From Deltaproteobacteria bacterium (lineage in GTDB: Bacteria > Desulfobacterota > GWC2-55-46), in contig JACRCH010000028.1 of assembly GCA_016219115.1 (NCBI GenBank), positions 1-34,092 of the forward strand: a stretch of 34,092 bases of DNA, written 5' to 3'. Positions 8,640 to 34,092 of the stretch are shown piece by piece. A model generated the notes under the pieces. The model saw only the letters and a list, made by a program, of their open reading frames with translations, was not told the origin of the DNA and did not search any database. How positions within the stretch are numbered: the stretch's first letter is position 1; the number at the start of each line of letters is the position of its first letter. Made by a program: the position numbers and the translations under genes.

Positions 8640-11066
<2,427 letters not shown>

Positions 11067-11211
11067 ACTCGTCCCCAACGGAGGGAAGCGCGGGGTCACC
11101 CGTGATCAGGCGACTGACTTCTTGCTGAAGAAGCCGCCCGGCCAAGTCTTCCCAACAGGTAATCGCGTTAACATTCTGTTTTTATAGATAAATTGAATAA
11201 CGGAGGTAGTT

Positions 11212-12474
11212 ATGCAGCTCACAGGTCTTCTGTGGGGCCAGAAGCTCTTAAAACGCGTTGAGTTCCCCTCTTCCGAAGTTCTCGGCCCGGAGGCAAGCGT
11301 TGACGAGATAAAGGACCTGATAAAGAGGTGCGGGCAGGTCTTCATAAAACCCATCTTCAAGGGCGGCGTCGGCAAAAAAGGCAAGGCCGGCCTTATCGGA
11401 AGGGCCAAAGACATCGCCACGGCCCTCAAAGAGAAAGAGAGGCTTTACTTCATCGAGCATACATTCGCCAACTCCGTGGCCAAGGCCGACGGAGTGACCT
11501 TTGAAGGCGGAGTGCCTGCCGAGCACGAGGTATACTTCTCGCTCTCCGAGTCTACCCTTTACCGCGCCCCGACCATGACCATTACACACCACGGCGGCAT
11601 GGACATAGAGGATCTGCCCAAGGATAAGATCAGGGAAGTGCCCTTCGACCCCCTCACGGGACTCAAGAGCTTCCATATTTCAAACGCTCTGGCAGAGCTA
11701 GGCGCGCCGAGCGAGATAATAAGCCCTCTGGTGCAGAACCTCCCGAAGCTCTGGACGCTCTACAACAACTACGGGATGAACACCCTTGAGCTTAACCCCA
11801 TAAGGATGTCTCCCGACTCAAAGGGCAGGCTCGTGCCCGTAGCGTGCGACTTCAAGGGCTCCTTCGATATCGACAACCCGGCGTGGAAAAGGCTCGAGCT
11901 GCCGTCGCACCTGTTCGCGTCTGATTACTCCGAGTTCGAGCAGGAGATAAACCAATTAAGGACCTACCAGGGCCAGAGCGACGTCTTCGTCATGAACCCG
12001 CAGGGGACCATAACGGCCCCCACCTTCGGCGGAGGGGCCAACGCCCTCGTGACGGAGCTCTTGGGCGAGCGGGCGACGATATCCTCCGACTTCGGCGGCA
12101 ACCCGCCGTACGAGAAGATGTTCCAGATCTCAAGGATAGTCTTCAAGTACTGGCTCAAGCAGTCCAATGTCCTTTTCATAATCGGCGGCAAGGCGAACAA
12201 CACCGACATTTTCGAGACATTCAGGGCCATGGCCGACGCCTTGAAGGACCACTTTCACAAAAACGGGGCCACGCCGCTTTATGTCGTAATCGGCAGGGGC
12301 GGGCCGAACCTCATCAGGGGCATGTCCTACATGAGGGACACGCTTGAGAACCTCAAGCTCCCCTACAGGATATTCGGCCATGACAGCGCCATGAGCGAGG
12401 TCGTCAACTACGCCCTCAACGTGGACAAGTGGATGGAGAAGGAAGGCAGGAAGCTCTTCTGCAACAGGGGCTAA
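11212..12474 (+). CDS. aclB: ATP-citrate lyase, small (ATP-grasp/CoA-ligase beta-like) subunit
   Basis: 420 residues, close to the roughly 400-residue AclB of green sulfur bacteria. It is homologous to succinyl-CoA synthetase beta and to the N-terminus of animal ACLY. Segments seen in order: FIKPIFKGGVGKKGKAGLIG (ATP-grasp), THHGGMDIEDL, NTLELNPIRM, VACDFKGSFDID, GTITAPTFGGGANALVTELLG, LFIIGGKANNTDIFETFRAM and VIGRGGPNLIRGM, the latter two in the citrate-binding region. With AclA it cleaves citrate to acetyl-CoA and oxaloacetate using ATP and CoA, the key step of the reductive TCA cycle. CGGAGG lies five bases before ATG 11212. The 145-base gap to icd holds no clear terminator, and a weak promoter (TTAACA 11168-11173, TAAATT 11189-11194, spacer only 15) is possible. 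Confidence 0.93.
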   Translation: MQLTGLLWGQKLLKRVEFPSSEVLGPEASVDEIKDLIKRCGQVFIKPIFKGGVGKKGKAGLIGRAKDIATALKEKERLYFIEHTFANSVAKADGVTFEGGVPAEHEVYFSLSESTLYRAPTMTITHHGGMDIEDLPKDKIREVPFDPLTGLKSFHISNALAELGAPSEIISPLVQNLPKLWTLYNNYGMNTLELNPIRMSPDSKGRLVPVACDFKGSFDIDNPAWKRLELPSHLFASDYSEFEQEINQLRTYQGQSDVFVMNPQGTITAPTFGGGANALVTELLGERATISSDFGGNPPYEKMFQISRIVFKYWLKQSNVLFIIGGKANNTDIFETFRAMADALKDHFHKNGATPLYVVIGRGGPNLIRGMSYMRDTLENLKLPYRIFGHDSAMSEVVNYALNVDKWMEKEGRKLFCNRG

Positions 12475-12536
12475 AGCGCCGCAGGACGGCAACCGCGGGC
12501 GTCAACAAAAATCAGACAGCGAAAGAGGCGAGGGTC

Positions 12537-15248
12537 ATGCATAAACAAGGCGTAAAAAAATTCCCCTATTATGTCGGAATAAACTCGCTGGCCGAGATGG
12601 CCACGAGGGAAGACAGGGTATGCGTGCTTAACATAACGGGCAACGAGAGCCGCTCCGTCACCCCGGTAAGCCACATATACTCCGGCGGCAATATCGTATT
12701 CGGCACCAGCCCCGGGAGGACCGGCCAGTTCGTTGAGACGAAGATCGGCAACATCCCCGTATATAACTCGATAAAGGAAGGCCTCAAGGCCGGACTCAAG
12801 TTCAATACCGCCGTCATCTACCTGCCGCCCTCGGGCGTCAAGGACGGGGTGGCCGAGGCCGTCAGACATAACCCAGACCTTAAAAAGATCGTCATACTCA
12901 CCGAGAAGGTCTCGGTGGCGGACGCCAGGGTCATAAGGGCGATATGCCAGACCAACGGGATAGACGTCTTCGGCGGAAACTGCCTCGGCGTGGCGGACGC
13001 CTGGAACAAGGTGAGGATCGGAGGAGCGCTCGGGGGTAATAAGCCCGAGGAGTCGCTCGTAAAGGGGTCCGTGGCCCTCTTCTCCAACTCCGGCAACTTC
13101 ACCACGACGATCGCCGTCTACCTCCTTACGAAGGGATGGGGCACGACGACATCCGTCTCAAGCGGCAAGGACGTCTACATACACTACGGACCCAGGGAGT
13201 TCTTCCACGCCCTCGACAACGACGACAGAAGCAAGGGGGCCGTCATATACATAGAGCCGGGCGGGTACTACGAGCACAACCTCGAGATCAACAAACCCAC
13301 GGTCGCCTGCGTCGTCGGACGCTGGAAGGCGCGCCTCACGAAAGCGTGCGGACACGCCGGAAGCCTCGCCGGTTCCGGAGACGACGCCAGGGCCAAGGAG
13401 AAGTGGTTCATGGACTACTTCGGGGTCAAGGACATCTATACCCCCCAGAACCCTATAGTCTCGAAGAAAGGCGCCGTCCTCACCAACATCGCCTATATAC
13501 CCGAGGCGTTGTCCAGGGTCATGGAGCTAAACGGGATAAAGCCCGACTTCGAGTCCAGGGGAGACCTCTCCTTAAAGTGCTGGTTCGCCAACAACGCCGG
13601 CCTCTCGCTGCCGCCCGAGCTCGACGCCCCCGTAGTCAAGGCCGAGGCCCCGTACGACGAACAGATAGACCATATCAACAAGCAGATCGGCGCCCAGTAC
13701 CCGAGGCAGGCGATGAAGGACTCAAGCGGCGCTTCGATGATGGACCCGGCAACGCAAGTCTCCAGGGTCCACAACATCTCGATACTCGACGCCTCGAAGC
13801 GTTCCCTCGAAGAGAACCTCTACATGTCCATAATGAAGAGGTATCCGGACGAGTACGGCAGGTCGCTTTTGAACGCCGCGTTCAACTCGTATGTGAACCA
13901 CTTCGGAGACCCCGCCCTGATGGCGGCGGACGCGGCGAGGGAGGCTGAAAGCTCTCCGAACACGGTCCTTTCGGCGGCGGTATCGATAATCGGCAAGGGC
14001 AGAGTAAAGACGGCCCTGGAAGTCTCGGAGCTGCTTCTTGAGCTTTTCCAGACCTCAGGGCTTACAAACCCGACCGAGAAGTTCGACTCCTCGGCAATCC
14101 TCAAGGGTCTCTCCAGGGACGCCGGAAAAGCGTTCACTGCCGACAAGGGAGATAAACTGGCGGACGCAATGCTTAAGAAGACCGACGGGCTTGGCAGGAA
14201 GTCCGTCTTTATCGAGTTCGTGAAGGAGGCGGCCGGAGGCAAGCCGTCTTCCGACGCGGTCTTCTCGGCCATCTGGATGACGCTCGGGTGGGAGGCCCTC
14301 GTAAAGAGGTCGATCTCCAAGATAACGATAGCACGGCTGCCGTGGTACTCAAGGGTCTTCTCGGCGTTCGTAGGCTGCAGCGTCCCGGCGGGCAAGCACA
14401 CGAAGGACAGCTTCTGCGGCGTAAAGAACGACGAGCTTATGGACAAATGGACATTTACCGAGGCCGCTTTCCTCGCCCTCATCGGGAGAAAGCCCTCTGA
14501 CAAGGAGCTCTTCGAGTTCTCGATGCTCCTGGGTCTCATCATCTCCAACGGCCCCGGCACCATCTCGGCGCAGGGCTGCAAGGGAGCGGTGAGCGCCGAC
14601 GGCCCCGAGGACCCGGCAAGGGTCCAGATAAACAAGGCCTTCATCGGTTTCCTCACGCACACCGGGTTCGCCCACGGCGGAAACGGCTACGAGGCCATAG
14701 CGTTTTTGATCGAGCGGTTCAAGGGCTCCGGGCTTAAGGACCCTGCCGACAGGAAACACGGGCTTAATCTCAGGTCCATAGCCGATGAGTACGCCAAAGG
14801 TTACGCCAGGTACAAGGCCGACCAGAAGGCGTTCGGCAACATCGAGTACCTGAAGATACCGTGCGTAAATCACCCGGTATTCAAGGGCAGGGACGTCAAC
14901 TACGACCCGAGGGAGAGGTTCGTGACCTCGCTCTTCGAGGAGAAGGGGATATACAACGTATTCCTGGACTTCTACCACAACCTCGTCCTCTCGCTCTTCG
15001 ACGCGAAGGTCTCCAAGAACGTGTACTGCGTCAACGTCGACGCGGTGATCGCGGTAATACTCCTGAAGGTCGTCTGGGACGCCTTCAACTCTGGCAAGAT
15101 GACCAACAGGGAGGTCGAAAGCGCCGCGTTCACGACCTTCCTCTTCGGCAGGATGATAGGCACCGCCTCCGAGGTGGACGACCACATAAACAGGGGCCGC
15201 AACATGGACACAAGGACAGCGGCTTCCAAATGCATGTTCGTAGGCTGA
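12537..15248 (+). CDS. aclA: ATP-citrate lyase, large subunit, enlarged form
   Basis: 903 residues from ATG 12537 (GAGGCGAGGG upstream); green sulfur bacterial AclA has only about 610. Residues 1-330 are succinyl-CoA synthetase alpha-like, with the phosphohistidine motif CGHAG (His273). The C-terminus is citrate-synthase-like (citryl-CoA lyase): LGLIISNGPGTISAQG, PCVNHPVFKGRD (His779) and NVDAVIAVILLKVVWDAF (Asp835). These match human His900, His975 and Asp1026 by eye, except that the first is Asn671. Between the two lie about 260 extra residues. They look like a further degenerate citrate-synthase-like region, with VNHFGDPALMAADAAREAESSPNTV and SSDAVFSAIWMTLGWEALV. It pairs with aclB, 62 bases upstream. 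Whether it is a known ACL variant or a diverged enzyme cannot be settled here. Confidence 0.85.
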   Translation: MHKQGVKKFPYYVGINSLAEMATREDRVCVLNITGNESRSVTPVSHIYSGGNIVFGTSPGRTGQFVETKIGNIPVYNSIKEGLKAGLKFNTAVIYLPPSGVKDGVAEAVRHNPDLKKIVILTEKVSVADARVIRAICQTNGIDVFGGNCLGVADAWNKVRIGGALGGNKPEESLVKGSVALFSNSGNFTTTIAVYLLTKGWGTTTSVSSGKDVYIHYGPREFFHALDNDDRSKGAVIYIEPGGYYEHNLEINKPTVACVVGRWKARLTKACGHAGSLAGSGDDARAKEKWFMDYFGVKDIYTPQNPIVSKKGAVLTNIAYIPEALSRVMELNGIKPDFESRGDLSLKCWFANNAGLSLPPELDAPVVKAEAPYDEQIDHINKQIGAQYPRQAMKDSSGASMMDPATQVSRVHNISILDASKRSLEENLYMSIMKRYPDEYGRSLLNAAFNSYVNHFGDPALMAADAAREAESSPNTVLSAAVSIIGKGRVKTALEVSELLLELFQTSGLTNPTEKFDSSAILKGLSRDAGKAFTADKGDKLADAMLKKTDGLGRKSVFIEFVKEAAGGKPSSDAVFSAIWMTLGWEALVKRSISKITIARLPWYSRVFSAFVGCSVPAGKHTKDSFCGVKNDELMDKWTFTEAAFLALIGRKPSDKELFEFSMLLGLIISNGPGTISAQGCKGAVSADGPEDPARVQINKAFIGFLTHTGFAHGGNGYEAIAFLIERFKGSGLKDPADRKHGLNLRSIADEYAKGYARYKADQKAFGNIEYLKIPCVNHPVFKGRDVNYDPRERFVTSLFEEKGIYNVFLDFYHNLVLSLFDAKVSKNVYCVNVDAVIAVILLKVVWDAFNSGKMTNREVESAAFTTFLFGRMIGTASEVDDHINRGRNMDTRTAASKCMFVG

Positions 15249-25554: not shown

Positions 25555-25648
25555 AAAACGCGTCAAACCTCTTTTGTCCGTTCCCGTCAGCGAGGGATAA
25601 TCCATGTGCGCCACGCTGACAGTGCGGCTTTTCAGGACGGGTCTTGAG

Positions 25649-28234
25649 ATGACGAACCTTACGCCTGCCATGAGGCAGTACCTTGACATAAAGGCTGAAA
25701 ACAGCGACGCCATCATCTTTTTCAGGATGGGGGACTTCTACGAGATGTTCTTCGAGGACGCCAGGACCGCCGCGCGCATCCTCGGCATCGCGCTTACTTC
25801 AAGGGACAAGAACCGCGAGATCCCCATGTGCGGGATCCCTTACCACGCCGCCGCCACCTACATCGCTAAACTCGTGAAGGAAGGGCTCAAGGTGGCCGTA
25901 TGCGAGCAGATAGAAGACCCGAACGACGCGAAGGGGATCATCGGAAGGGCCGTCACAAAGATCATCACGCCCGGTATCACGATAGAGGACGAGCTTCTTG
26001 ACCCCAAGACCAACAACTTCATCGCCGCCGTCTCAGTAGGCTCCAGGGTCTCGGGTTTCGCCTACATGGACGTATCCACCGGAGAGTTCAGGGTAGCCGA
26101 GTTCCCTGCCGTGGAAGAGCTCAAGGACGAGGTCAAACGGATACACCCGCTTGAGCTTATCGTCCCGGATAACGCGGCGGAGGCCCTGAGCGCGGCTGAA
26201 CTCCAGGTAAAAAAGATCACGCCAGTACCGAAGTACGACTTCGAGCTTGATAACGCCACCGAGAGGCTCACCGGACACTTCGGCACCGCTTCCCTTGAGG
26301 GTTTCGGCCTTGGAGAGCTCACGGAGGCCGTCAAGGCCGCTGGCGCGCTCCTCAACTACATAAAGTCCACTCAGAAGGCCGAGCTTACGCATATAAAGAA
26401 GTGCACGCAGTACTCGGCCGGCGAGTACCTCATCATCGACCACTCGACCAGGAGAAACCTTGAGATAACCGAGAACATCAGGACCGGCGGAAAGGAAGGC
26501 ACTTTGCTGGACCTTCTCGACAGGACAAGGACAGCCATGGGCGCCAGACGCCTTAAGTCGTGGCTCCTGCACCCCCTGAAGGACGTGATAAAGATCAGCG
26601 CCCGGGCAAGCGCGGTGGAAGAACTTGTAGAGAAAAGGGAGCTCAGGGTGGAGCTTCAGGAGCTTTTAAACGAAGTCTATGACCTGGAGAGGCTCATGGT
26701 GAGGGTATCGCTGAAGGCCGCCAGCCCCAAAGACCTCGTCTCCCTCAAGGCCTCGCTTGAAAAGATACCCTCGATAAAAAAGGCCGTAAACCTTTTCAGC
26801 GCCCCGCTCATAGCGGCGATGTCTTCGGCCACAGACGCCGTGAAAGAAGCCGCCGATATGATCGGCAAGGCGATTCAGGACTCTCCCGCGTACTCCGTCA
26901 AAGACGGAGGGGTCATAAAGGAAGGCTACGACCCCGCGCTCGACGAGCTTCGCTCGATAGGTTCCGGCGGCAAGGACTGGATAGCAAGGCTTGAGTCCGG
27001 CGAGCGCGTCCGCACGGGGATAAACTCTCTAAAGGTCGGCTACAACAGGGTCTTCGGCTACTACATAGAGGTGACAAGGACGAACCTTTCAAACGTACCC
27101 GCTGACTACATAAGAAAGCAGACCCTTGCCAACGCTGAAAGGTACATCACTCCGGCATTGAAGGAGTGGGAAGAAAAGATTCTTACGGCGGAGGAGAAGG
27201 CCAGGGAGCTTGAGGCATTGATCTTCTCAGGCATCGTCGAGGCGCTTGCCGGGTTCTCGGAGAGGGTACAGAGGACCGCTGAGATACTCTCAACCCTGGA
27301 CTCCCTATCGTCTCTGGCCGAGGTGGCCCAGAGGATGAACTACGCGAGGCCTGTCGTAAACGAAGAAGAAGCGATCGAGATAGAGGGAGGCCGGCACCCG
27401 GTGATAGAGGCCGGGGTCAGGGACTTCGTCCCGAACGACATTCTCCTTGATAACGGCTCCAACGGGATAATAATACTGACGGGGCCGAACATGGCCGGCA
27501 AATCGACCTACCTGCGGCAGAACGCCCTCATAGTCCTCCTGGCGCAGATCGGGTCGTTCGTCCCGGCCTCAAAGGCCGCGATAGGAGTGGTCGACAGGAT
27601 CTTCACCAGGGTAGGGGCCTCGGACGACCTGGCCAGAGGCCACTCCACCTTCATGGTGGAGATGAACGAGGCGGCCAATATCCTGAATAACGCCACCGGT
27701 AAAAGCCTCATCATACTCGACGAGATAGGCAGGGGCACCTCGACCTTCGACGGGCTCAGTATCGCGTGGGCGGTGGTCGAGTACATACACGACCGCCCGG
27801 CCCTTAAAGCCAAGACCTTATTCGCCACGCATTACCACGAGCTTACGGAGCTTTCCTTGACAAAGGAACGGGTCAAAAATTATAATATGGCAGTAAAGGA
27901 ATGGGATGATAAGATAATATTTCTAAGGAAGGTCTTGCCCGGAGGGTCGAGCAGGAGCTACGGCATACAGGTGGCAAGGCTGGCGGGACTGCCTGGGCCG
28001 GTGATCACCCGGGCCAGGGAAATACTTAAAAACCTCGAGACCGGCGAGCTTAACGACTCAGGATTGCCCAGGCTTGCGTTTAAAAGGGAACTAAGCCCTG
28101 ATGCCCGGCAGATGACGCTGCTGGGAGACAAAGACGCTGTACGCGAAAAGTTAAGGCATATGGAGCTTGATTCCATGACACCGCTCGAGGCGCTCACGGC
28201 GCTCCACAAAATGAAGGAGATGCTGGAGAATTGA
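25649..28234 (+). CDS. mutS: DNA mismatch repair protein MutS
   Basis: 861 residues. It begins MTNLTPAMRQYLDIK, like homologues. The mismatch-reading Phe-X-Glu is Phe30-Tyr31-Glu32 in FFRMGDFYEMFFEDA. Domains II-IV follow (core and clamp). The ABC ATPase has Walker A GPNMAGKST (from about residue 612), the signature ARGHSTFMVEM, Walker B LIILDEIGRGTSTFDG and ATHYHELTEL. Family member MutS1. The frame is open from ATG 25604, giving 15 extra residues that homologues lack, so ATG 25649 is preferred. It is followed after two bases by amiC, implying coupling. Confidence 0.95.
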   Translation: MTNLTPAMRQYLDIKAENSDAIIFFRMGDFYEMFFEDARTAARILGIALTSRDKNREIPMCGIPYHAAATYIAKLVKEGLKVAVCEQIEDPNDAKGIIGRAVTKIITPGITIEDELLDPKTNNFIAAVSVGSRVSGFAYMDVSTGEFRVAEFPAVEELKDEVKRIHPLELIVPDNAAEALSAAELQVKKITPVPKYDFELDNATERLTGHFGTASLEGFGLGELTEAVKAAGALLNYIKSTQKAELTHIKKCTQYSAGEYLIIDHSTRRNLEITENIRTGGKEGTLLDLLDRTRTAMGARRLKSWLLHPLKDVIKISARASAVEELVEKRELRVELQELLNEVYDLERLMVRVSLKAASPKDLVSLKASLEKIPSIKKAVNLFSAPLIAAMSSATDAVKEAADMIGKAIQDSPAYSVKDGGVIKEGYDPALDELRSIGSGGKDWIARLESGERVRTGINSLKVGYNRVFGYYIEVTRTNLSNVPADYIRKQTLANAERYITPALKEWEEKILTAEEKARELEALIFSGIVEALAGFSERVQRTAEILSTLDSLSSLAEVAQRMNYARPVVNEEEAIEIEGGRHPVIEAGVRDFVPNDILLDNGSNGIIILTGPNMAGKSTYLRQNALIVLLAQIGSFVPASKAAIGVVDRIFTRVGASDDLARGHSTFMVEMNEAANILNNATGKSLIILDEIGRGTSTFDGLSIAWAVVEYIHDRPALKAKTLFATHYHELTELSLTKERVKNYNMAVKEWDDKIIFLRKVLPGGSSRSYGIQVARLAGLPGPVITRAREILKNLETGELNDSGLPRLAFKRELSPDARQMTLLGDKDAVREKLRHMELDSMTPLEALTALHKMKEMLEN

Positions 28235-28236
28235 AT

Positions 28237-29481
28237 ATGCATAGCGAGCGCTTAATTCAACCCGAAGGAAATATCAAAAATGTCACGCTTCTTAAGGGGC
28301 TGGTCCCGTTGCTCCCGGCCTTCGTCATCTTCTATCTATTCGCATTGACGGGCCTCGCCTTTGCCGCCACGAACGCCAGGGTCACCGGGATAAAGCACTG
28401 GTCCAACCCGAACTACACAAGGATAGTAATAAACCTGAACCGAAAGGCCGCCTTCTCGACGCATCTTCTGAAGAAGGACCCGTCCATAAACGTCCCCTGG
28501 AGGCGCCTTTTGATAGACATCACCGGCGCAACGGCCTCATCGGGGATAGACAAGTCCATTTCTATAAACGACGGACTTCTTAAGAAGGCCCGCGTCGGCC
28601 AGTTCAGGAATGATACCGTCAGGGTCGTCCTCGACATCGAATCGATCGAGGACTACAAGGTATTTCCTTTAAGCGACCCGTACAGGATAATCATCGACGT
28701 TACCGGAACCAAGGCTGCGGTTATTGAAAGGCCCGCCGAAGGTCCGGCAAGCTTGCCGGACAAGAAAGGGGCCCTCGCCAGCCCAACGCTCACCCGGCAG
28801 CTCGGGCTCAAGGTACGAAAGATCGTCATCGACCCAGGGCACGGCGGCAAAGACCCCGGCGCTATCGGCAAGGGCGGGCTGAAGGAAAAGGATGTCACGC
28901 TCAAGCTCTCGAAGATGCTCCGCGAGAAGCTTGCCCCGAGCGTATCAAAGATAGTGATGACGCGCGATACCGACGTCTTTATCCCGCTTGAAGAGAGGAC
29001 CGCCATAGCCAACAGCCAGGACGCCGACCTCTTCGTCTCCATACACATCAACGCCAGCCAAAGGGCGGCCGCCTCCGGAGTAGAGACTTACACGCTCAAT
29101 ATCTCCAACGACGAGGAGGCCAGGAGGCTGGCAGCAAGGGAGAACGCCACGTCCAGAAGGTCTGTCAGCGACCTTGAGTTCATACTTAACGACCTTATAA
29201 AGACCGCCAAGACAAACGACTCTGTCAGGCTAGCCACGGTCGTTCAGGAAAGGATAGCCAAGAAACTGAGAGAGAGGTTCAACACGAGGAGTAACGGCGT
29301 GAAGGGAGCCCCCTTCTATGTCCTCGTAGGCACGAAGATGCCGTCCATACTTGTAGAGGTCTCCTACATAAGCAACCCCAGGGAGGAAAAACTTCTCCAG
29401 GACGAGAGATACTTAAACGAGATAATCGATGGTATCTCCAGGGGGCTCCTCGAGTACATCAATGGAACGGGTTCGGTATAA
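28237..29481 (+). CDS. amiC: N-acetylmuramoyl-L-alanine amidase with AMIN domain
   Basis: 414 residues. The hydrophobic N-terminus (about residues 22-46, LVPLLPAFVIFYLFALTGLAFA) is a likely signal peptide. An AMIN domain (about 50-150) targets the septum, and an Amidase_3 domain (about 190-410) follows. Zinc ligands are His202 (DPGHGGKDPGAIG), Glu217 (GLKEKDVTL) and His270 (VSIHINAS); the catalytic Glu374 is in ILVEVSYISN. It cleaves the amide bond between MurNAc and the peptide during daughter-cell separation. GGAG at 28225-28228 spaces correctly to ATG 28237; the TTG at 28231 is too close. Confidence 0.93.
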   Translation: MHSERLIQPEGNIKNVTLLKGLVPLLPAFVIFYLFALTGLAFAATNARVTGIKHWSNPNYTRIVINLNRKAAFSTHLLKKDPSINVPWRRLLIDITGATASSGIDKSISINDGLLKKARVGQFRNDTVRVVLDIESIEDYKVFPLSDPYRIIIDVTGTKAAVIERPAEGPASLPDKKGALASPTLTRQLGLKVRKIVIDPGHGGKDPGAIGKGGLKEKDVTLKLSKMLREKLAPSVSKIVMTRDTDVFIPLEERTAIANSQDADLFVSIHINASQRAAASGVETYTLNISNDEEARRLAARENATSRRSVSDLEFILNDLIKTAKTNDSVRLATVVQERIAKKLRERFNTRSNGVKGAPFYVLVGTKMPSILVEVSYISNPREEKLLQDERYLNEIIDGISRGLLEYINGTGSV

Positions 29482-29496
29482 TAATGGCGCCTGAAT

Positions 29497-32142
29497 ATGT
29501 ATAAGACGATACTCGATACGCTCTGTGGCGCAAGGGCTGCCACCCCTGTCATAAAGGAGTTCCTCTCCAGGGGGGAAAAGGCGCTACGCCATAAACACAT
29601 CGAGGAGAAGCGCGGCACGGAGGTCTGCCGGAGCTACACGCTCCTTATCGACGACATACTGAAGGCCCTTTTCACCAACAAGTCCGAAGGGCTGAAGTGC
29701 GCGGAGAACACGGCCCTCGTCGCTTTGGGCGGCTATGGCAGAGGGGAGCTTAACATCCGCTCCGACATCGACCTCATGCTCCTGTACGACAAGAAGCTCA
29801 CCCCGGCCATAGAGGACTTCACGCAGCAGATACTCTATGTCCTCTGGGACACGGGGCTCGACCTCGGTTTCAGCATCAGATCGGTCGCCGAATCCATCGA
29901 TCTTGCCAGGGACGATCTCAAGACGATGACGGCGCTACTGGACCTGAGGTTCTTACTTGGCTCTGAGAGACTTTACGAAAAACTCAGGACCGGCGTAAAG
30001 AGGAAACTCTTCAACAAGGCCCGCACATCGGCCTTCGTCAACGACAAGCTCGAGGAGACCCGCCAGAGGCATCAGCGCTTCGGAGGCTCGGTCTATATTC
30101 TGGAGCCGAACGTGAAAGAGGGCGAAGGGGGGTTAAGGGACTTCCACACCGCAATGTGGGTCATAAAGGCCAAGAACAATTCGCACGACGACCCGCATAA
30201 CCTCGGCCTCATATCTAAACGGGACTACAGGGAGCTTACGGCCTCACTCGATTTCCTTCTATGGGTGCGTAACGAACTCCACTACGAGTCGAACAGGAAG
30301 GCCGACCAGATGACCTTCGACCACCAGGAGAGGATAACCGGGCTTCTGGGCTTTAAGAACACCGAAAAGGCGCTGGCCGTGGAGGCCTTCATGCAGCAGT
30401 ACTACAGGCACGCCTCCAACATCAACCACTTCTCGGACCTGATACTCTCGAGGGCGATACACAGGGACGAGAAAGTCGTTTTTTCCTGGCCGAAAAAAAA
30501 GGTCCGCATCGATAAAAATTACTCCGTGGCGGGCGGGGTCCTCGCCGTAGCCGACAGAGATGCCTTCGTCAAAGACCCGTCCGTCGCCATGAAGGCGTTT
30601 GAGTACGCGCAGGCCTTCGAGGTGGAGATCAATCAGGGCACGGTCGACCTGATATTGAACCACATGGAGACGGCCGGAGACGAGTTCAGGACATCAAGGG
30701 ACGCGTCGGACTCCTTTCTCAAGATACTCAAAGGCAAAAACGTATACAAGGCCCTCTCTGAGATGCACAGGCTCAAATTCCTCGGCAAATACATCCCGGA
30801 GTTCACCGACATAAGCTGCAGGGTCCAGCATGACCTCTACCATGTCTATACGGTGGACGCCCACACGCTCTTCGCCGTACGCGAGATAGAGCGCCTCAGG
30901 GGGCAGTACAAGCCGGACTTCTCGCTCCACTCGACCATCTTCGAGGAGATCCCCAACCCGGAGATACTGATCCTCGCCGTCCTGTTCCACGATATCGGCA
31001 AGGCCCACGGGAAGGGGCACGCGGAGACGGGCGCCGCGATGGTCCCTGAGATATGCAGGAGGCTGAACCTCTCGGAGGACGACACGAACCTTCTTAAGTT
31101 CCTCGTCAAAAACCACCTGCTCCTTGCCGACACCGCCCAGTACAGGGACCTCCACGACGAGAAGCTCATAATAGAGTTCGCAAAAAAGGTAGGGGACATC
31201 GAGAGGCTCAACCTCCTGTTCCTCCTTACCTTCGCGGACGTAAGGGCCGTAGGCCCGGATGTGTGGAACCAGTGGAAGGGCACGCTTTTTCAGGAGCTTT
31301 ACTTCAAGGCCCTCACTGTGCTTGAGAGGGGGACCTTCGAGGTCGAGGAGGCTCAGATCAAGTATGAGCGGATAAAGGAGCGTGTCGCGGGCATCCTGAA
31401 ATCCGACGGCATAGAGCGCTCTTCCGTAGACGCCTTCTTTGAGCTGCTGCCGCAGAGGTACTTCTTATCCACCAGCCCGGACTTCATAGCCGACCACGTA
31501 AAGATTTTGAAGGACTTCGCGGGAAGGCCCTACGTTATGACTGTAAGGCAGGATACGTTCAGGGAATACACCGAGCTTGTCATATGCACGCATGACGTAC
31601 ACGGGCTCTTCTCGATGATAACCGGGGTCATGGCCGCAAACGCCGTGAACATCCTCGGCGCTCAGATAAACACTCTTAAAAACGGGATAGTCCTCGATAC
31701 CCTCCAGGTCAACAGCCCCATCGGCGAATACATAACCGATGAGACGAAGCTTAAGAAGATAGAGTCCGACCTTGCCAGCGTAATAACCGGAAAGGTAAAA
31801 GTAGCCTCGCTCGTGGGCAAAAGGAAGCCCTCGATACTGGACAGCAAGCCCAAGCCTGTTGTGCGCACCATTGTCCAGATAGACAACGATGTCTCGGACG
31901 CCTACACCGTCCTGGACATCCACACGCAGAACAGGATCGGGCTCCTCTACGACATTACAAGCACGCTCTCGAAGCTCGGCCTCTACATATATATCTCCAA
32001 GATCTCCACCAAGGGGGACGAGGCGGCCGACATCTTCTATGTCAAAGACATCTTCGGCCAGAAGATATTCTACAGGGAGAAGCTCAAGGAGATAGTAGAT
32101 ACGGTCTACAATGTCCTGACCGAACCTGACCGAAAAGGATAA
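29497..32142 (+). CDS. glnD: [protein-PII] uridylyltransferase / uridylyl-removing enzyme
   Basis: 881 residues with the full GlnD domain set. The nucleotidyltransferase motif is GGYGRGELNIRSDIDLMLLYD (about 77-97). The GlnD PII-uridylyltransferase region has EPNVKEGEGGLRDFHTAMW. The HD domain has LFHDIGKAHGKGH (His498-Asp499). Two C-terminal ACT domains (about 710-785 and 805-881) sense glutamine. It senses cellular nitrogen status by modifying and demodifying PII. The start is ATG 29497, 15 bases after amiC. No Shine-Dalgarno is obvious. Length and all catalytic motifs are normal for the family. Confidence 0.95.
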   Translation: MYKTILDTLCGARAATPVIKEFLSRGEKALRHKHIEEKRGTEVCRSYTLLIDDILKALFTNKSEGLKCAENTALVALGGYGRGELNIRSDIDLMLLYDKKLTPAIEDFTQQILYVLWDTGLDLGFSIRSVAESIDLARDDLKTMTALLDLRFLLGSERLYEKLRTGVKRKLFNKARTSAFVNDKLEETRQRHQRFGGSVYILEPNVKEGEGGLRDFHTAMWVIKAKNNSHDDPHNLGLISKRDYRELTASLDFLLWVRNELHYESNRKADQMTFDHQERITGLLGFKNTEKALAVEAFMQQYYRHASNINHFSDLILSRAIHRDEKVVFSWPKKKVRIDKNYSVAGGVLAVADRDAFVKDPSVAMKAFEYAQAFEVEINQGTVDLILNHMETAGDEFRTSRDASDSFLKILKGKNVYKALSEMHRLKFLGKYIPEFTDISCRVQHDLYHVYTVDAHTLFAVREIERLRGQYKPDFSLHSTIFEEIPNPEILILAVLFHDIGKAHGKGHAETGAAMVPEICRRLNLSEDDTNLLKFLVKNHLLLADTAQYRDLHDEKLIIEFAKKVGDIERLNLLFLLTFADVRAVGPDVWNQWKGTLFQELYFKALTVLERGTFEVEEAQIKYERIKERVAGILKSDGIERSSVDAFFELLPQRYFLSTSPDFIADHVKILKDFAGRPYVMTVRQDTFREYTELVICTHDVHGLFSMITGVMAANAVNILGAQINTLKNGIVLDTLQVNSPIGEYITDETKLKKIESDLASVITGKVKVASLVGKRKPSILDSKPKPVVRTIVQIDNDVSDAYTVLDIHTQNRIGLLYDITSTLSKLGLYIYISKISTKGDEAADIFYVKDIFGQKIFYREKLKEIVDTVYNVLTEPDRKG

Positions 32143-32336: not shown

Positions 32337-33233
32337 ATGGATATCGGCTCACAGATCATAAGAGAGTTCCTCGACCACATAATAGTGGAGAGGGGGCTCG
32401 CGAAGAACACGGCTCTCTCCTACGGGAGGGACCTCTCGAAGTTCTCCGTCTGGCTTACAGGAAGAGGCATAGACCTCCTTTCAGCCACATCAAAAGATAT
32501 CACCGGGTTTCTCAAGGATGAACGAGAAGCGGGGCTTGCCGTAAGGTCATACACGAGGGGCCTTATAGCCTTAAGGGGCCTTTATAAGTACCTTCTGAAG
32601 AGGGGCAGGATTACCGCTTCACCGTGCACTGACGTCGATATACCGAGGATGCAACGGAGGCTCCCGGAGTTTTTGACGTTTGAAGAGGTTGAAAAACTCC
32701 TTGGAGCGCCAAAAAGCGAACATATTCGCGGGCTTAGGGATAAAGCCATGCTGGAGACCTTATACGCAACGGGCTTGAGGGTCTCCGAACTCGTCTCTTT
32801 AAGGCTCAACGATATAAACCTCCAAGGCGGTTATCTGACGGCCTTCGGCAAAGGCTCCAAGGAGAGGCTTGTGCCGCTGGGCGAGTCGGCCATGGTCTGG
32901 CTCAAAAGGTACATGGAGGAGGCGCGACCGTCATTGCTCAAAGGCAAACATAACAAGTTCCTTTTTGTCACCGGGAGGGGGAGCGGGATGACCCGGCAGA
33001 ACTTCTGGGTCATCGTAAAGACAAACGCCCTGAGGGCCGGTGTTGACAAAAAGAAGATAAAGCCGCACATCATCCGCCATTCCTTCGCCACACACCTCCT
33101 TGAGGGAGGAGCGGATCTGAGGATGGTCCAGGCTATGCTCGGGCACGCCGATATCTCCTCTACCCAGATATACACCCACATCACGAACGAACGACTCAAG
33201 AACCTCCACAAAAAGAGACACCCGAGGGGGTGA
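32337..33233 (+). CDS. xerD: site-specific tyrosine recombinase XerD
   Basis: 298 residues, exactly the length of E. coli XerD. From ATG 32337 the catalytic residues fall at the same numbers as in that protein: Arg148 (GLRVSEL), Lys172 (GKGSKERLVPL), His244 and Arg247 (HIIRHSFATHLL), His270 (LGHADIS) and Tyr279 (IYTHIT). This supports the start choice over TTG 32316. The N-terminal SAM-like domain binds the core (IIREFLDHIIVERGLAKNTALSYGRDL). XerD resolves chromosome dimers with XerC at dif, under FtsK control. A 28-bp dif-like site lies 61 bases after its stop. XerC itself is not in the window. Confidence 0.94.
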   Translation: MDIGSQIIREFLDHIIVERGLAKNTALSYGRDLSKFSVWLTGRGIDLLSATSKDITGFLKDEREAGLAVRSYTRGLIALRGLYKYLLKRGRITASPCTDVDIPRMQRRLPEFLTFEEVEKLLGAPKSEHIRGLRDKAMLETLYATGLRVSELVSLRLNDINLQGGYLTAFGKGSKERLVPLGESAMVWLKRYMEEARPSLLKGKHNKFLFVTGRGSGMTRQNFWVIVKTNALRAGVDKKKIKPHIIRHSFATHLLEGGADLRMVQAMLGHADISSTQIYTHITNERLKNLHKKRHPRG

Positions 33234-33294
33234 GAGGGTCTATCTATTGGCCCTCTAAAGACTCCAAGAACTCTCCTTCTGTACTCTTCGGCTA

Positions 33295-33322
33295 ATTTGA
33301 CATAATATCCATTATGCGACAT
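33295..33322 (-). other. dif: dif-like chromosome dimer resolution site
   Basis: Read on the - strand: arm ATGTCGCATAA, centre TGGATA, arm TTATGTCAAAT. Against E. coli dif recalled from memory (arms GGTGCGCATAA and TTATGTTAAAT around TGTATA), 22 of 28 positions match. The XerD-side arm matches 10 of 11 and the inner CATAA...TTATG is intact. It lies between xerD (+) and a convergent - strand gene. A fortuitous match is possible but the length and 11-6-11 architecture make it unlikely. Confidence 0.68.
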
Positions 33323-33359: not shown

Positions 33360-33593
33360 CTACTCGATTATCACATTGGTCAGGGTCCGTTTTACGTAAT
33401 TAATCGACTGTATCTTGCTTATCACGACATCCCCGAGGACCTTGAAATTGGAGGCGGCGACAAGCGCTATCAGGTCATATGGGCCGGTGACGATCTTGGC
33501 CTCCTTTACACCCCCGATCTTCATCAGCGCCGCCATAACTTCCCTTGACTTCGCGTGCTCGCACTCGATAAATACATACGCCTCAACGGACAT
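33360..33593 (-). CDS. stand-alone Lrp/AsnC ligand-binding (RAM) domain protein
   Basis: 77 residues, MSVEAYVFIECEHAKSREVM...GVKEAKIVTGPYDLIALVAASNFKVLGDVVISKIQSINYVKRTLTNVII. This is the alpha/beta RAM (regulation of amino acid metabolism) fold of Lrp/AsnC regulators without the DNA-binding helix-turn-helix. Such single-domain proteins bind small effectors and form ring-like oligomers in other species. The start at 33593 is backed by AAAGGAGG five bases upstream on the - strand. A longer start at 33629 is in frame but has no such signal. It is the only - strand gene found and converges on xerD across the dif-like site. Confidence 0.85.
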   Translation of the reverse strand: MSVEAYVFIECEHAKSREVMAALMKIGGVKEAKIVTGPYDLIALVAASNFKVLGDVVISKIQSINYVKRTLTNVIIE

Positions 33594-33636
33594 ACGGACC
33601 TCCTTTAAGGTTAAAGCAGCCCTCAACACACTAATG

Positions 33637-33956: not shown

Positions 33957-34020
33957 TAAAAACAGGTAAACCCCCGGCTCTGCCGGGGGACTCACAGAGT
34001 TTGACATTTGCGGGAAAATA

Positions 34021-34075
34021 CGAAAACCTCCTTAGCTGTGAACCGCTCAAAGTTTACAGGAAAAGGAGGTTTTCG
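34021..34075 (+). promoter_or_regulatory. hairpin sequestering the transposase ribosome binding site
   Basis: CGAAAACCTCCTT (34021-34033) pairs perfectly over 13 bp with AAGGAGGTTTTCG (34063-34075), with a 29-base loop. The 3' arm contains the full Shine-Dalgarno AAGGAGG and ends right at the GTG start. Folding would block translation, as known for IS200 leaders. Confidence 0.85.
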
Positions 34076-34092
34076 GTGGACGACGAGAAAAG
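34076..34092 (+). CDS. tnpA: IS200-like transposase TnpA, first codons only
   Basis: GTG 34076 opens a frame reading M-D-D-E-K-(S/R), matching the start of IS200-family Y1 transposases (recalled as MDDEKSLxHTRWNCKYH). AAGGAGG lies six bases upstream inside the sequestering hairpin. Only 17 bases are present, so the identification leans on the leader structure and left-end hairpin. Confidence 0.6.

Follow-up and report, generated by a model that had tools for sequence, protein, structure and literature searches.

The question raised by this locus is whether a dif-like sequence lying directly behind xerD forms a compact Xer/dif module, as an earlier note on this DNA had proposed by analogy with the single-recombinase systems XerS/difSL and XerH/difH, or is the chromosomal dif of a two-recombinase system. 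The site lies near the end of a window of 34,092 nucleotides (the whole stretch of DNA that was analysed), which is an entire contig of a 143-contig draft genome, about 89% complete, of a Deltaproteobacteria bacterium. Our favoured reading, to which we give a probability of roughly 0.95, is that the 28-mer is a functional chromosomal dif used by XerC, XerD and FtsK, and that its adjacency to xerD probably goes back to one ancestral rearrangement. This reading draws on the sequence of the site, its single copy, its terminus position in relatives, the polarity of a motif around it and the presence of XerC, XerD and the FtsK gamma domain.

The dif Site and its Surroundings

25604..28234, plus strand: mutS (named by reading; conserved synteny)
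28231..29481, plus strand: amiC-like N-acetylmuramoyl-L-alanine amidase gene (named by reading; conserved synteny)
29497..32142, plus strand: glnD (TIGR01693, 739 bits; conserved synteny)
32337..33233, plus strand: xerD, 298 aa (TIGR02225, 371 bits against a cut-off of 329.6; catalytic residues in E. coli XerD register)
33234..33255, plus strand: hairpin with a 7-bp stem (GAGGGUC/GGCCCUC), found by folding, directly 3′ of the xerD stop and separate from dif
33295..33322, minus strand: dif, 28 bp (22/28 to E. coli dif; best match in the genome; conservation island; at the terminus of G039 and G020)
33295-33305: XerD arm of dif, facing the xerD gene (10/11 identical to E. coli dif, a single mismatch)
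33306-33311: centre of dif, 6 bp (5/6 identical)
33312-33322: XerC arm of dif (7/11 identical)
33360..33629, minus strand: gene for an 89-aa Lrp/AsnC ligand-binding-domain protein (weak match, to the C-terminal half of LysM/AsnC regulators)

The top strand of the window at 33295-33322 is ATTTGACATAATATCCATTATGCGACAT, and the minus-strand reading, ATGTCGCATAATGGATATTATGTCAAAT, aligns with E. coli dif at 22 of 28 positions. The layout is 11-6-11 with partial dyad symmetry, the arms agreeing with each other at 8 of 11 positions, and 61 bases separate the xerD stop codon (33231-33233) from the 28-mer; the coordinates, identity, layout and distance given in the earlier note were all reproduced. At equal base composition, a match of at least 22/28 has a probability of 4e-9 per position, and random 22/28 matches are expected 0.02 times per 2.3-Mb genome and 1.7e-6 times per 200-base stretch. 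The search for a second dif-like 28-mer that the note had called for was made with a relaxed palindromic pattern and found no comparable site in the draft, the site at 33295-33322 being the best match and the runner-up clearly poorer. A stricter pattern matches this draft, about 89% complete, exactly once, as it does nearly all genomes of the class, and a reversed-pattern control gives no match in the draft; dif is therefore taken to be single copy.

The catalytic residues R148, K172, H244, R247, H270 and Y279 are all in register with E. coli XerD (1a0p) in an alignment without gaps, as had been claimed. The Lrp/AsnC-like gene is the first gene past dif and is transcribed towards it, and an asnC neighbour occurs near dif in many genomes of the order. 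The switch in gene orientation previously described at the site is real, but it rests on this one 89-aa minus-strand gene. A synteny comparison shows that the block GH57-mutS-amiC-glnD-xerD-dif is conserved in relatives.

Elsewhere in the window, the final 133 bases (33960-34092) are repeated without a difference at the start of contig C37, and copies with 83-97% similarity, most of them shorter, are found at several further places in the genome; a repeated mobile element probably ends here and interrupted the assembly. At 8847-15248, three adjacent genes resemble, by eye, those for monomeric isocitrate dehydrogenase and the two ATP-citrate lyase subunits, a reading that would suggest a reductive TCA cycle.

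A Complete XerCD/FtsK System

The search for xerC that the note had also suggested found an intact, full-length gene with all catalytic residues at 9505-10368 of contig C80, adjoining hslV-hslU, and an FtsK gamma domain (PF09397) is encoded on contig C52. Because the genome encodes both of these in addition to XerD, the compact-module reading needs correcting, and the analogy with XerS/difSL and XerH/difH fails: the system is a canonical XerCD/FtsK/dif system with an unusual genomic address, not a self-contained module.

Like the XerCD/dif/FtsK systems of E. coli-type Proteobacteria (Carnoy and Roten, 2009, PMC2731167), it has a 28-bp 11-6-11 site with a conserved XerD arm, which is single-copy, non-coding and located at the terminus, and XerC, XerD and the FtsK gamma domain are encoded; it differs from them in that dif lies directly behind xerD. 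With XerS/difSL of streptococci and lactococci and XerH/difH of Campylobacter and Helicobacter it shares a recombinase gene that adjoins the site at the terminus, whereas those systems use one recombinase and atypical sites, and here XerC is present and the site is a classic dif. In some archaea, too, xerA adjoins a classic 28-bp dif (PMC5357621, PMC2958812), but the archaeal system has a single recombinase and its dif is usually not opposite the origin. A survey of predicted dif sites placed xerC mostly in the vicinity of dif and xerD in that of the origin (Kono et al., 2011, PMC3025954), and we found no report of dif downstream of xerD in the openly licensed literature.

Position at the Replication Terminus

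Because the source genome is a draft in 143 contigs, GC skew was analysed in G039, a member of the same family whose closed genome is one contig of 2,751,635 bases, and terminus evidence was also taken from a 768-kb contig of G020, which belongs to another genus of that family. In G039 the 28-mer recurs without change some 0.17 kb past xerD, and this dif lies 49% of the chromosome away from dnaA (at 26,657). In samples of about 20 kb of every 35 kb, the mean GC skew is +0.031 before dif and -0.033 after it, and the extremum of the detrended cumulative skew falls in the sampling bin that holds dif. In the 440 contiguous kb around dif, which were also analysed, the skew forms a plateau from about 1.25 to 1.39 Mb, with dif 42 counts under the maximum of 2,580, and skew alone therefore does not pin dif.

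Motif polarity is sharper. The KOPS-like octamer GGGNAGGG, which is the E. coli motif and may not be this lineage's own KOPS, shows strand counts of 198:95 before dif and 72:230 after it in the sampled G039 sequence, and in the contiguous 440 kb its polarity maximum, at 1,376,296, is 889 bp from dif. The polarity also flips at the dif of G020 (30:7 before and 4:50 after, counted from bins). The dif site thus marks the replication terminus in these two same-family relatives, by the distance from dnaA in G039 and the octamer flip in both, which bears out the terminus proposed for this locus. An E. coli-style comparison of dif orientation with the left and right replichores was dropped, because reversal of the chromosome leaves that orientation undefined.

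Linkage of xerD and dif Within and Outside the Order

A site pattern made of the XerD arm and the core matches 48 of the 63 class genomes, with few exceptions at one place each. Of the 48 genomes of the order, 36 have dif behind xerD on one contig, in an orientation that never varies and with a gap of 30-1848 bases. These comprise 33 genomes in which strict-pattern sites were joined to xerD coordinates, G010 and G045, whose variant dif, missed by the pattern, lies 50-65 bases behind xerD, and G033, whose xerD beside dif is truncated. G041 is a 37th linked genome, in which a 141-base contig overlap places dif about 0.9 kb behind xerD. The 28-mer carries 1.55 bits of information per position and its flanks 0.07-0.10, the former an underestimate because the alignment took in both readings of some sites. 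Conservation of the site beside xerD, which the earlier note had wished to see checked in related genomes, is thus upheld, the 28 bases standing out as an island.

The remaining genomes of the order mostly lack xerD or dif in the assembly or reach a contig edge. Three loci, however, depart from the arrangement, which counts against the favoured reading: at L024, glnD-xerD is present with no dif-like site within 4.8 kb; the only site in G021 is half-degenerate and lies 1.9 kb from xerD; and in G032 the 5.3 kb upstream of a good dif contain no xerD. One unrelated gene lies between xerD and dif in G037 (a 454-aa pectate-lyase-like frame, L233 1303-2667) and in G013 (a 496-aa frame on the opposite strand, L234 1003-2493), so strict adjacency is not required.

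In all eight class-mates outside the order in which both were located, dif and xerD are on different contigs. Because both lie at least about 6 kb from contig ends in G054, G057 and G059, the two are truly separate there, and genes of the glnD-xerD block were absent from the dif loci fetched in class-mates outside the order. In none of a further 75 genomes of the phylum in which both were located does dif lie within 10 kb of xerD on one contig; the nearest distances are 11, 15, 27 and 34 kb, and in 63 of the 75 the two are on different contigs. Among the genomes examined, tight xerD-dif linkage is therefore specific to the order. In four members of other families of the phylum (G187, G095, G137 and G212), xerD lies 11-34 kb from dif, so a location of xerD near the terminus may have evolved on more than one occasion.

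Some observations touch on integration at dif. Two contigs of G047 (L236 on C182, 478-505; L237 on C190, 3587-3614) share the xerD-side flank and dif but differ from the outer boundary of the XerC arm onwards, one continuing into asnC and the other into a 151-aa open frame; integration of an Xer-using element at dif, or differences between strains in carrying one, would give such a picture. G030 has, besides a good dif beside xerD, a second dif-like site near a contig end (ATTTAACATAATATGGATTATGCGCGTC, C23:44700-44719), possibly the attachment site of such an element. No remnant of a second dif was found between dif and asnC in G039 and G020, nor in the 8 kb beyond dif in G028. By eye, contig ends seem to be in excess at dif, an impression for which no claim is made.

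Proposed Function and Alternative Explanations

By analogy with E. coli, from which binding, the order of strand exchange and activation by FtsK are taken, XerC would bind the outer arm (33312-33322) and XerD the arm facing the xerD gene (33295-33305). Polarity motifs pointing to dif from both replichores would load FtsK, which would pair both dif sites of a dimeric chromosome at the septum and, through its gamma domain, activate XerD, so that recombination yields monomers. Recombination itself probably does not depend on adjacency to xerD. In the ancestor of the order a rearrangement probably joined the glnD-xerD block to the terminus, and the two have stayed together since, which would give the adjacency a single origin.

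A single-recombinase module of the XerS/difSL or XerH/difH kind is suggested by the direct contact of recombinase gene and site, since such linkage has been described in a review as a possible hallmark of these systems (PMC5357621). This is the one feature of that class found here: the genome has a second, intact recombinase in the XerC next to hslVU, XerD falls in the XerD equivalog model (371 bits) and scores 105.8 bits against an XerS cut-off of 267, and the site has a 6-bp centre and a classic dif sequence. The intact XerC and the two model scores lead us to exclude the module, which is hardly credible. It is also very unlikely that the 28-mer is, instead of the chromosomal dif, an attachment site or relic of an Xer-exploiting mobile element or the transcription terminator of xerD. 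Its palindromic arms could form a weak hairpin, and the divergence of the two G047 contigs at its outer edge is expected of integration at dif, but the site is single-copy and at the terminus, its outer unpaired bases are conserved, and a 28-mer closely resembling it occurs in class-mates with no xerD in the neighbourhood. The terminator reading was rejected because no T-tract follows the 28-mer and the stronger hairpin is the separate one at 33234-33255.

Selection for the linkage, acting on XerD dosage or local supply through the terminus location or on co-inheritance, would be an addition to the XerCD/FtsK reading, not a replacement of it. It would account for the fact that xerD lies less than 2 kb from dif in all 36 one-contig genomes, including those with 0.6-1.8 kb of intervening genes or DNA, whereas the asnC side drifts (about 18 of 25 on the same contig lie within 2 kb, the others up to 12.6 kb away or on other contigs). 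However, conservation is just as strong across the whole GH57-mutS-amiC-glnD-xerD block, so that normal operon synteny may be explanation enough; elements inserting at dif would displace the far side only; and relatives outside the order live without the linkage. We therefore regard selection as a doubtful addition, and a functional linkage that keeps dif locked 3′ of xerD at the terminus across the whole order as conceivable but rather unlikely.

Implications

Because a complete XerCD/FtsK system has its dif behind xerD, the locus is new in arrangement and not in mechanism: a two-recombinase system whose xerD-dif linkage extends across a lineage. Two ideas that were formerly joined, linkage of a recombinase gene to its site and use of a single recombinase, are thereby separated; if the linkage were functional, the rule that recombinase-site modules are formed only by single-recombinase systems would no longer hold. 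In practice, the arrangement makes the terminus easy to find in draft genomes of this lineage, where xerD can be located and the sequence downstream inspected, and the order as a whole provides a natural experiment on whether the location of xerD matters.
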